Shown here one piece after another: positions 45,921 through 56,086 of a stretch of 64,000 bases of DNA. Position 1 is the first letter of the stretch, and every line of letters starts with the position of its first letter. Made by a program: the position numbers and the translations under genes. Below the pieces are notes generated by a model. The model did not search any database. It worked only from the letters and a program-made list of their open reading frames with translations, and was not told the origin of the DNA. This stretch comes from Flavobacteriales bacterium (lineage in GTDB: Bacteria > Bacteroidota > Bacteroidia > Flavobacteriales > CAJXXR01): contig JAOAQX010000034.1 in the NCBI GenBank assembly GCA_025210805.1, forward strand, positions 1 to 64,000, in the 5' to 3' direction.

Positions 45921-46000
45921 AGGAGCTATTTCCCGCTTTCGGCTTTATCTTTTGTTTTTCTTCAAAAAACAAAAGGATACCGCCTCTATCGGGGCTAAAA
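45921..46000. repeat. Flavobacterial REP-like intergenic element
   Basis: GAGCTATTTCCCGCTTTCGG near the left, CTTTTGTTTTTCTTC paired with AAACAAAAGGAT in the middle, and CGGGGCTA at the right. This composition is a familiar multi-copy intergenic repeat in Flavobacteriia genomes (recalled, not searched). To 46234 I see only an ATTATCCG/CGGATAAT hairpin near 46056..46079. Confidence 0.5.
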
Positions 46001-46234
46001 ACATTGTACAGAGAAATAAAAACCCAACAAAAACTAAAAACAATAGTCGCATATTATCCGAATAGTATACGGATAATTATTCGCTTATCTCTCCTTCATA
46101 AAATTGTTTTTTGTATCTTAGTCTTATGATATTCAAAAATATAAATAGTACCTCTAGATTCACTTCCAAAACCTGTTTTTACTGGGCTTTTTGTGTTTTT
46201 GATAATGACAGAAAAAGTATAAACGTATAAGGCG

Positions 46235-46285
46235 TATAAACACAACTATGTTATGCAAGGGTGTGTTTATATGGTTGTTATGCCC
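46235..46285 (+). other. attC-like site (upstream cassette junction)
   Basis: 10-bp perfect arms TATAAACACA (46235..46244) and TGTGTTTATA (46262..46271) are followed by TTGTTATGCCC (46275..46285). That 11-mer is exactly complementary to GGGCATAACAA at 47160..47170, on the other side of the gene. GTTATGC resembles an integron R' box. The geometry equals the R'/R'' relation of an integrated gene cassette. Confidence 0.5.
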
Positions 46286-46297
46286 AATTAGAAAAAA

Positions 46298-47155
46298 ATG
46301 AAAACAGTAATAATCATATTAACAATATTCCTTAGTCTAACGACAGTGAAGACATATGCTTGTGATTGTGAATCTCAAGGGGATTTCTACAAGGTATCTC
46401 CAAATTCTGATTTAGTTGCTTTAGTCAAAGTCAATAAATATCTGACATTTAAAGACATTTATGATAGTCCAACACCAATGTCAATGGAAGTTGAAGTGCT
46501 TGAAGTTTTCAAAGGGGTTGAGAATCGAAAAAAAGTGAAAGTATGGGGTGACTTTGGAAATTTATGCAGACCATACCTCAATCAGTTTTCAGTTGACAGC
46601 TTATATGTCATTGCCTTTCATAAGGGAGAAAAGGGAAATTTTGGTCATATAGATGAAACTGAAAGCGATTATTTTATATCAAATTGTGGTGAATATTGGT
46701 TACAAGCAAATTCAAAATCTGATAAGCTTATTAGTTCTGAATCGACAATTGAAATTAATAGGCTAAGAAATTTTTATGACAGAACTAAAGAATTATCACC
46801 AACTGACTTCAAAGAGATATTTCAAAAAGCTTTAGACTTTCCAGATTTGCAACAGTTTTATCATACAGACTTTGACTCTACTCGAAAACAAGTGATTATT
46901 AAGTATTTCGGAGAAGCTAACCATAATAACTTGCTTGGAGTATCAAAATTTGATAAGCAAATAATAATCAAAACGGAAGAAGAAATTAAAGAAGAAGGTA
47001 TTAAGCATTATTTTGGACTAGGTGATTGGGTTTGCGGAACAAATTCTGTGAGAATGCAACTATCTTATCCAATTGAAGGTGTAACACTTTCCCTTATGTT
47101 TAAGAAAATAAATAATGAGTGGAAGATAACGAATAACGCCTTATGGGAAGAATAA
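46298..47155 (+). CDS. Secreted TIMP/NTR-like protein, putative cassette gene
   Basis: 285 residues with signal peptide. After cleavage it starts ACDCE, the cysteine-led N-terminus of tissue-inhibitor-of-metalloproteinase (NTR) folds. It continues with VEVLEVFKG and further cysteines at CRPYL and SNCGEYW, as in bacterial TIMP-like domains. The C-terminal 130 residues are of unknown type. It is bounded by complementary 11-base sequences. Confidence 0.65.
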   Translation: MKTVIIILTIFLSLTTVKTYACDCESQGDFYKVSPNSDLVALVKVNKYLTFKDIYDSPTPMSMEVEVLEVFKGVENRKKVKVWGDFGNLCRPYLNQFSVDSLYVIAFHKGEKGNFGHIDETESDYFISNCGEYWLQANSKSDKLISSESTIEINRLRNFYDRTKELSPTDFKEIFQKALDFPDLQQFYHTDFDSTRKQVIIKYFGEANHNNLLGVSKFDKQIIIKTEEEIKEEGIKHYFGLGDWVCGTNSVRMQLSYPIEGVTLSLMFKKINNEWKITNNALWEE

Positions 47156-47159
47156 AAAA

Positions 47160-47292
47160 GGGCATAACAATGTATATAAAAAATAGGCGAGACAGTAATA
47201 TATTCAAGTATTTTGGCTCGTATCACAAACTTGTACTTAACGAAATTTTAATACCTCGAAATCGCCTACTTTTCATATACTAAACGTTGTGC
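47160..47292 (+). other. attC-like 133-base hairpin between cassette genes
   Basis: The left arm (47160..47190, starting GGGCATAAC and ending TAGGCGA) and right arm (47262..47292, starting TCGCCTA and ending GTTGTGC) pair over about 31 bases with mismatches and one gap. The outermost boxes GCATAAC and GTTGTGC correspond to R'' and R' of an integron attC. No integrase gene is nearby, and the central spacer of 71 bases is on the long side of attC sites. Confidence 0.5.
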
Positions 47293-47309
47293 TTCATTAA
47301 AAAAAACGA

Positions 47310-48302
47310 ATGGTTCATAAAAAACAAAGGGTAATACAGCATATTATGGAAGATGAGTCTTTTAAGATTATTAAAGACCATTTGCCAAAAGAATGGGTTG
47401 TTCGAGAATTTAATCATCCTGATTATGGGGTTGATTTAGTTATAGAATTATTTGAATCAATCAATGCAAAAGTTTCTGAGACCTTAGGCGAATATCTATA
47501 TGTTCAGGTTAAATCCGTTCAGGAATTAGAGATTAAAAAGGAGAAATTATATCCAGTTCAAAACGTTGCAAAAGGAAATTGGAAAGAAGACAAATCAGAA
47601 TATATTGAAGTTGAAGTTGTAAAGTTTGTATTAGACACAAATAGCATATATACAGTTCAATCATTAGGTTCAAGTATTTCATTTGTGTTGTTTGTCGTAG
47701 ATTTAAAAACCAAGGATGTATACTTTATATGCCTTAACGATTTCATTGACAAAATTCTACTACCACAAAATCCAAACTACACAGACCAAGGTTCTGTGAC
47801 AATTACAATTCCGACTTTAAATAAATTATCTGAGAAGATTATCAGCAGATTTGCATTGGAAATTTATGGTAAACGAGCGAAATTCTTATCTGCTTTTGCA
47901 AAATTTGCATATCAAAAGAATGAATTATCATATTTGTTAAAGTATAAAGATTTTCCAGTGGTAACTAAACGGGATGAAATTGAAAATGTTTTTGCCTCTG
48001 AAAGTGACATAAGACGACAGGTGTTGTTTTTTATTGAACAAATACAAGGTCTTGACATATGGGAATATAAGGCTTGGGAAGTATTATCTGCTGCCAAAAG
48101 TGAGTTAATGGATTTAAAGAAAAGATTAAATGACGGAGAGGATTTGAATTCCTTGATTGAGAAAATACTAATTACTTGGCATAGATTATCAAATCTTGTG
48201 AATATGTATGAAGAACTAACGAGAGAATGGTTCTTGCCTAAATTTTTGAGTTTTATGACTTCCTACCCTAATATGCCTGATGTAATAGTGGAAAAGAAAT
48301 AA
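47310..48302 (+). CDS. DUF4365-like protein (nuclease-fold candidate), cassette gene
   Basis: 330 residues without signal. The N-terminal half carries DYGVDLVIELFE and LYVQVKSV, the D...(Q)-x-K spacing of PD-(D/E)xK nuclease-like DUF4365 domains. A helical C-terminal half follows. A defence or DNA-processing role is inference. Flanked by TTGTGCTT (47287..47294) and AAGCACAA (48306..48313). Confidence 0.6.
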   Translation: MVHKKQRVIQHIMEDESFKIIKDHLPKEWVVREFNHPDYGVDLVIELFESINAKVSETLGEYLYVQVKSVQELEIKKEKLYPVQNVAKGNWKEDKSEYIEVEVVKFVLDTNSIYTVQSLGSSISFVLFVVDLKTKDVYFICLNDFIDKILLPQNPNYTDQGSVTITIPTLNKLSEKIISRFALEIYGKRAKFLSAFAKFAYQKNELSYLLKYKDFPVVTKRDEIENVFASESDIRRQVLFFIEQIQGLDIWEYKAWEVLSAAKSELMDLKKRLNDGEDLNSLIEKILITWHRLSNLVNMYEELTREWFLPKFLSFMTSYPNMPDVIVEKK

Positions 48303-48312
48303 CGAAAGCACA

Positions 48313-48444
48313 ATCGAGTAGACGGCTCCGCCAACTAAACTGACGGAGTTCGCCTCTCAAATAAGCGAAGCGATTCATGAAAACCTATAAAATTAAAACA
48401 ACTGAATACTCCACCGTACGTACGGGTCTCGTATACGGCGGTTC
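48313..48444 (-). mobile_element. Group II intron 3' end remnant (domains V and VI)
   Basis: Read on the minus strand, GAACCGCCGTATACG...CGTACGTACGGTGG (48411..48444) is a domain V: 8-bp lower stem, CG bulge, 4-bp upper stem. GAGAGGCGAACTCCG...CGGAGCCGTCTACTCGAT (48313..48358) is domain VI with the usual bacterial intron 3' terminus. About 52 extra bases separate the two. No intact reverse transcriptase precedes it; traces such as GFISLSNYYSK resemble the maturase C-terminus. The 3' end abuts the AAGCACAA box. Confidence 0.7.
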
Positions 48445-49260: not shown

Positions 49261-49455
49261 AGCTTTCCGACAAGTTTTTCATGAAATTCAAGCTCATTTT
49301 ATTTACATAATTTGCTTGATAAACTCCCAAAAAACCAACCGAATTCATACGCATATAGCAAAAAATCAACTCATTGATTTGCTAAACACTTTGGATTCAT
49401 TAGATTTGGGTAAACAAAATATATAGGGAGTATAAACACATTTTTGCTATATAAT
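49261..49455 (+). repeat. Long trailer repeat, copy A
   Basis: Begins AGCTTTCCGACAAGTTTTTC and ends with TATAAACACATTTTTGC; it aligns over its length to 52035..52209. It carries about 30 additional bases with GCATATAGCAAAAAAT, which is complementary to the ATTTTTGCTATAT near the end and can form a hairpin of attC-like shape. Confidence 0.75.
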
Positions 49456-49492
49456 GGTGCATTTAAATAATTATTGTACAAAGATTTGAAAA

Positions 49493-52034: not shown

Positions 52035-52209
52035 AGCTTTCCGACAAGTTTTTCATGAATTTAAGCTCATTTTATTTACATAATTTGCTTGATAAATTCC
52101 CAAAAAACCAACTTAATGATTTGATAAATCCTTTGGATTCATTAGATTTGGGTAAACAAAATATATAAGGCGTATAAACACATTTTTGCTATATAATTGT
52201 TGTTTAAAT
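52035..52209 (+). repeat. Long trailer repeat, copy B
   Basis: Second copy of 49261..49455, including CTTTGGATTCATTAGATTTG and AAGGCGTATAAACACAT. The latter string is also at 46230..46244. The upstream part (51904-52034) holds degenerate trailer sequence with no gene. Confidence 0.75.
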
Positions 52210-52232
52210 AACTCTTACACTTAATTAAACAA

Positions 52233-53431: not shown

Positions 53432-53510
53432 AAAAAATGTTCAGTAACTAGGTATTCAACAGCTCAAAGAGCTATCTAAAAATCCACAAAACATCTGGAT
53501 TGACTAAAAA
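53423..53510 (+). repeat. Short trailer repeat, copy 1
   Basis: AATGAATTAAAAAAAATGTT followed by CAGTAACTAGGTATTCAACA and AGCTATCTAAAAATCCACAA; nearly identical to 54991..55078. The repeat starts inside the last codons of the lipoprotein gene. Confidence 0.85.
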
Positions 53511-55000: not shown

Positions 55001-55078
55001 AAAAAATGTTCAGTAACTAGGTACTCAACAGCTCAAGAGCTATCTAAAAATCCACAAAACATCTGGATTGACTAAAAA
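54991..55078 (+). repeat. Short trailer repeat, copy 2
   Basis: Matches 53423..53510 except for one substitution (TATTC/TACTC) and one base missing in CTCAAAGAGC. It again begins in the last codons of an unrelated gene. Confidence 0.85.
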
Positions 55079-55235
55079 AACATACCTGATTAAATGTAAA
55101 AATTAAGTATTTTGTAATTCCAAAAAATTTAATAAAAACTACTCGTGGTGTGGGTATTTGGTCAACAATGTGTAAAAACATTCTAGAGGTTCGCTACGCT
55201 GCTGCCAATTGTTTTTATCATATAACAACATTAAT

Positions 55236-55997: not shown

Positions 55998-56001
55998 CTT
56001 G

Positions 56002-56086
56002 CGGAGAGAGAGGGATTCGAACCCCCGGTCCTGTTACAGACAATGGTTTTCAAGACCACCGCATTCGACCACTCTGCCATCTCTCC
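56002..56086 (-). tRNA. tRNA-Ser (UGA)
   Basis: 85-base tRNA on the minus strand: acceptor GGAGAGA / TCTCTCC, anticodon loop CTTGAAA with anticodon TGA, a long class II variable arm (TGTCTGTAACAGGACC region) and T arm GGGGGTTCGAATCCC. It marks the end of the accessory island. Confidence 0.95.

Follow-up and report, generated by a model that had tools for sequence, protein, structure and literature searches.

Integrons built around an IntI integrase, from class 1 elements to the sedentary chromosomal integrons of Vibrio, recombine an attI site with the attC sites of gene cassettes. The crossover falls at G/TT (the slash marking the point of exchange), an R'' sequence within each cassette is complementary to that cassette's own start (R'), the cassette genes point in one direction, and the attC hairpin is more stable on its bottom strand. 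The IntI-specific additional domain is held to be required for activity, according to Messier and Roy (2001) as cited in PMC9668308, and IntegronFinder demands it (PMC9668308). How the domain arose has been described as a chicken-and-egg paradox, the domain and attC each being senseless without the other (PMC4792948). A survey from 2022 lists one complete integron in Bacteroidetes (PMC9024848), and in the spirochaete Treponema the integron integrase is described as intI. Outside integrons, the related XerA, XerC and XerD recombinases are encoded by a lone chromosome-resolution gene.

The window analysed here is a stretch of 64,000 nucleotides from a Flavobacteriales bacterium (GCA_025210805.1, contig JAOAQX010000034.1, positions 1 to 64,000 of the forward strand). 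Judging from sequence comparisons, positions 46231–47294 are probably (at roughly 0.86) what remains of an integron-type platform. It would comprise an attI-like site, one cassette and an attC recombining at G/TT, and would once have been served by a Xer-like, non-IntI integrase that has been lost from this genome. An integrase lacking the IntI insert and associated with cassette arrays in Bacteroidota was not described in the literature searched; subscription papers and preprints lay outside that search, so an earlier description is possible.

An attC-type junction and its cassette

The first-pass annotation of 46235–48314 described two consecutive genes with complementary flanks, separated by a hairpin with a 31-base arm, and interpreted them as an integrase-less, CALIN-like array of cassettes. 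The flanks of the first gene are as claimed: TTGTTATGCCC at 46275–46285 has its exact complement, GGGCATAACAA, at 47160–47170. Those of the second gene, TTGTGCTT at 47287–47294 and AAGCACAA at 48306–48313, are both present over 8 bases. Among random window stretches of similar length, with the same flank sizes, a match of at least 11 bases turned up in 0.16% of draws and one of at least 8 bases in 5.8%, so only the first pair is significant by itself. The hairpin at the junction is real, and its supposed arm consists of a 19-bp unbroken stem with interrupted outer R pairs in the predicted bottom-strand fold of 47159–47294 (-14.2 kcal/mol, z -2.2); with regard to extrahelical bases, the predicted fold of this one site is unbroken over those 19 bp.

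The annotation had named a lack of attC-model matches among the things that would refute it, and the outcome was the opposite. Twenty-three sites, all from other species, went into covariance model R1, which contains no sequence of the source genome and matched the junction at 55.3 bits. Thus an attC-type junction and the cassette rule are retained for the first gene, while the second has an R''-like end with no R1 match and no intact attC behind it. Chance complementarity, with ordinary genes separated by hairpins of repeats or terminators, could be suspected in AT-rich sequence, in a region full of other repeats and with a second pair as weak as 8 bases; it is hardly credible beside a cross-species R1 match of E=5e-12, a rule that extends over 32 cassettes and the lack of any upstream R1 match in the relatives described below, and for 47159–47294 it is already refuted unless the R1 match is an artefact. 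The coordinates of the putative relic platform and its surroundings are given in Table 1.

Table 1. Features of the window around the putative relic platform.
Feature	Position	Strand	Basis or remark
Flavo-1 RNA, antiparallel, just upstream of platform	45925..46000	-	Rfam RF01705, 68.3 bits
Conserved platform leader, possible promoter/5' region	46105..46230	+	~19 genome copies; not codon-constrained
attI-like palindrome ending ..GGTTG; crossover 46277 (G) / 46278 (T)	46231..46277	+	similarity of copies stops there; same layout behind intact integrases elsewhere
Cassette 1	46278..47286	+	own start GTTATGCCC complementary to GGGCATAAC at 47160
Cassette gene, 285 aa, without Pfam match	46298..47155	+	
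attC of cassette 1, crossover G47286/T47287	47159..47294	+	R1 E=5e-12; predicted fold
Cassette 2 gene, DUF4365 protein	47310..48302	+	
R''-like end of cassette 2, attC not intact	48306..48313	+	8-base match; without R1 match
Integrase gene 3'-end remnant (ending HIAKNQLIDLLNTLDSLDLGKQNI, stop)	49345..49426	+	
Degenerate attI-like copy	49427..49475	+	
Second integrase gene 3'-end remnant	52108..52168	+	
Degenerate attI-like copy	52169..52220	+	

Leader-attI platforms in the source genome

The first cassette is preceded by a palindrome, GGCGTATAAACACAACTATGTTATGCAAGGGTGTGTTTATATGGTTG/TTATGCCC, that had escaped the first-pass annotation and that occurs together with a leader of ~120 bp in about 19 copies in the source genome. 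Among full copies, similarity stops directly after GGTTGTT, at G/TT, and an unrelated gene follows, the start after the platform usually taking the form TTRnnnnnCAWTnAAAA. Two further good palindrome copies (C34:97.8 kb and C23:157.6 kb) lack the leader and directly follow the 3' end of a tyrosine-integrase gene, and the window contains two degenerate copies of this arrangement of integrase remnant plus attI (49345–49475 and 52108–52220). A DNA search of 396 genomes of the order found the leader-attI module only in the source genome, which leaves no close relative among them for a comparison of gain and loss; in G325, the one genome checked of another species with its own attI, a single attI copy is present. 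The leader may act as a promoter. A coding leader peptide was also considered and rejected: the leader has a mini-ORF, but changes fall evenly on all codon positions and the frame is broken in several copies.

About 15 of the 19 platforms have no intact attC behind their gene, and their cassettes have therefore either decayed or entered by another route. A search for R'' by simple matching behind 21 platforms returned few good matches (the window, C22 and C23:171826), the rest appearing decayed.

Several other elements accompany these platforms. Flavo-1 RNA (RF01705) lies antiparallel ~100–200 bp upstream of attI platforms, in the window and at L137:15306–15381, L141:11672–11747 and L143:8586–8664, and every match to it in the scanned stretches adjoins a platform. 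In many cassettes of the source genome the usual attC is replaced at the end by an R''-like stretch and, after it, a conserved TAACTAAGTCTTCGGATTGCTCGCAGAGCAAAATCTGAAGA hairpin (C23:185.7 kb, 79.8 kb and 77.9 kb; window 51925; L182), and these ends may represent a lineage-specific attC variant or a product of decay. Direct repeats, AACTAGGTATTCAACAGCTC...GGATTGACTAAAAA, stand behind cassette-like genes at 53446–53510 and 55008–55080 of the window and are apparently related to this hairpin. A tRNA-Ser gene (56001–56086, minus strand) ends the variable, one-directional region of 46.2–55.9 kb.

An integrase family without the IntI insert

The source genome, in an assembly rated 99.9% complete, contains no intact integrase of the family, only fragments, among them the two remnants of Table 1 and one at C34:97520–97750. 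The label integrase-less is thus accurate for intact genes and had overlooked these remnants. Since integrase survives only as 3' fragments, the ~19 platforms and their cassettes probably stay in place unless an integrase is supplied in trans. The nearest relatives of the 77-aa remnant are intact integrases of ~380 aa in Gillisia, Flavivirga, Psychroflexus, Aquimarina, Winogradskyella, Zunongwangia, Marivirga and others, and at that length the family assignment rests on 69–72% identity together with the attI context. Of 396 sampled Flavobacteriales genomes, about 16 (~4%) encode a strong member (over 490 bits); for the class, sampled with 395 genomes, members at E<=1e-110 are present in 34, spanning 30 genera.

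Three comparisons separate these proteins from IntI. First, seven Bacteroidota integrases score 175–206 bits against the integron integrase model TIGR02249, for which only the cut-off of 265 is informative because matches occur in every control genome; a true IntI (L068) scores 448. Second, the alignment of the seven to this model falls into two blocks that skip positions ~180–241, and the insert of VchIntIA (2a3v, residues ~179–245) has no counterpart in them, so that none of the seven examined possesses the IntI-specific additional domain. Third, the Bacteroidota integrases form their own clade in a tree, separate from IntI, but its deep branches are weakly supported. The lack of the IntI insert also sets them against the Treponema integrons, a contrast drawn on the integrase. 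The best family score instead comes from the XerA-like model NF040815, where three of the seven exceed the cut-off and the rest fall just under it, and the catalytic part has a fold like those of XerA, VchIntIA and XerH, the closest being XerA/XerC/XerD (PDB 5hxy, 4a8e). Unlike those recombinases, the Bacteroidota integrases go with attI and cassette arrays and carry an additional N-terminal domain.

Sequence searches with this N-terminal domain gave no Pfam or PDB match. A structural model of it fits best to archaeal XPB N-terminal domains (Z 6.1–6.4, about 2 Å over 54–57 residues), which are damage-recognition domains, and less well to the HARP domain of SMARCAL1 (4o66, Z 4.0). Z scores under 8 are weak and make the likeness a lead only; the corresponding Foldseek E-values, about 0.17 and 1.2, are not significant, and the shared feature may be only a common small fold.

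Layout and cassette rule in relatives with intact integrases

Where the integrase is intact, the integrase gene, palindrome, G/TT, cassettes and attC follow one another in a single direction. The palindrome in most relatives comes shortly after the integrase stop codon and is followed by nnTTG/TTR or ACG/TTR and then by a same-strand gene. This layout of integrase, palindrome and G/TT recurs in dozens of loci, placing an attI with insertion at G/TT beside the integrase gene in the relatives and beside integrase remnants in the source genome. The order-level layout statistic left out loci without a visible attI (L162, L165, L169, L172 and L174) as well as loci short of downstream sequence and is therefore biased upward; the unbiased test is a set of ten further genomes from the class, picked on integrase score and nothing else, and all ten exhibit the attI layout.

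Downstream of the intact integrases, array sites of the form R''-AACAACGTGTATA...CATACACnAAnCG/TTR separate same-strand genes. Sites were picked by their inner motifs, and the seven free R'' bases of each were then set against the first bases of their own cassette. The mean agreement is 6.22 of 7, with 21 of 32 cassettes perfect, against 2.51 for permuted pairs (p<5e-5). Within one junction, R'' and R' come from different cassettes and are only partly complementary, which is expected for integrons and not decisive. Two further comparisons bear on the crossover and on mobility: between Zunongwangia pacifica (L072) and a relative (L147), identity is 96% across the 150 bp that end at G/TT and 52% beyond it, and near-identical attC sites (92–95% over 130–190 bp) are found in different genera, as would be expected of travelling cassettes.

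The ten further genomes contain 28 R1 matches in ~66 kb downstream of the integrase genes, of which 27 share the strand of the integrase, and 0 matches in the 99 kb upstream of the same genes. This distribution bears on whether host XerCD or another resident recombinase moves cassettes with attC-like ends, the linked integrase being a passenger. The source genome does have platforms with no linked integrase, and XerC/XerD-like genes are present in it; that explanation is nevertheless very improbable, as elsewhere the integrase adjoins attI and the attC sites lie downstream on its strand.

It is likewise improbable that the locus is a classical CALIN, formed of cassettes from an IntI-type integron after loss of intI or through off-target insertion by IntI. 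The attC rule, the G/TT crossover, the bottom-strand folding and the cassette content are all integron-like and would suit such an origin. However, the search for IntI that the first-pass annotation had suggested found none above the cut-off in the source genome, and the matches of the remnants next to attI are to the insert-less family, whose members are also accompanied by this attC type in the ten further genomes. Moreover, a CALIN takes at least 2 clustered attC sites with no integrase close by, and the 3.1-Mb source genome has four significant R1 matches, which are dispersed, with one in the window. The CALIN-like label is therefore not upheld, and the relic platform of a non-IntI integrase remains the preferred reading.

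Strand preference and a possible mechanism

The bottom strand is predicted to fold better in 33 of 35 attC sites, by a mean of 2.6 kcal/mol with DNA energy parameters, and arm mismatches on the top strand comprise 89 A.C against 9 G.T, equivalent to T.G wobbles on the bottom strand; the p-values of this asymmetry overstate it, as the sites are related. Its direction agrees with the bottom-strand recombination of known integrons (PMC2727003). IntI integrons differ in the placement of the asymmetry, which in Bacteroidota sits in T.G wobbles, in their attI, which here is a short palindrome right after the integrase stop codon, and in their integrase, which here has an extra N-terminal domain and no IntI-specific insert. 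Since the integrase lacks the defining IntI feature, the system is filed as working like an integron and not as an IntI integron.

It is plausible that the bottom strand of attC folds, the T.G wobbles favouring that strand, and that the integrase would then exchange one strand with a double-stranded attI at G/TT. The cassette would enter behind the leader and may be expressed from it. Even odds can be given to a broader proposal, namely that Bacteroidota hold a separate integron lineage whose Xer-like integrase, devoid of the IntI domain, acts on folded single-stranded attC with T.G-aided choice of strand, perhaps through an XPB/HARP-like, fork-binding N-terminal domain, and that the leader-attI was multiplied to ~19 stations in the source genome. 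Arrays that obey integron anatomy without the IntI domain make the paradox of its origin testable: the domain would be either dispensable or replaced in its function by another. They also carry a practical consequence. With IntegronFinder demanding the IntI-specific domain, an IntI search would miss the Bacteroidota family, and detection tools of this kind cannot class its members as integron integrases (PMC9668308).

Cassette contents

Padloc and Pfam searches of the window cassette genes returned nothing of note beyond DUF4365 and a type IX sorting domain. The source genome has three other significant attC sites. The site on C29 is beside a ParDE-like toxin-antitoxin pair, named by inspection. 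The site at C34:100042 follows a PtuAB (Septu) pair that is itself downstream of an integrase remnant and attI; within C34:97520–100165 (L001, L183), this anti-phage pair (PtuA 416 aa, PtuB 215 aa) lies between the remnant with its attI and the attC. A Septu system in this position means that a pool of mobile defence genes may go unseen. The site at C22:14280 closes a 5.4-kb cassette with its own R'' matching at 10 of 10 bases. This cassette (L143:8952–14249), bounded by a platform and the attC, is very long for its kind and carries a single gene, for a STAND-like NTPase of 1765 aa. Other platform genes, on C23, encode an NB-ARC/STAND NTPase (L137:12327–14987) and an OLD/GajA-like ATPase (L025:5680–7389), hinting that the platforms hold defence genes.
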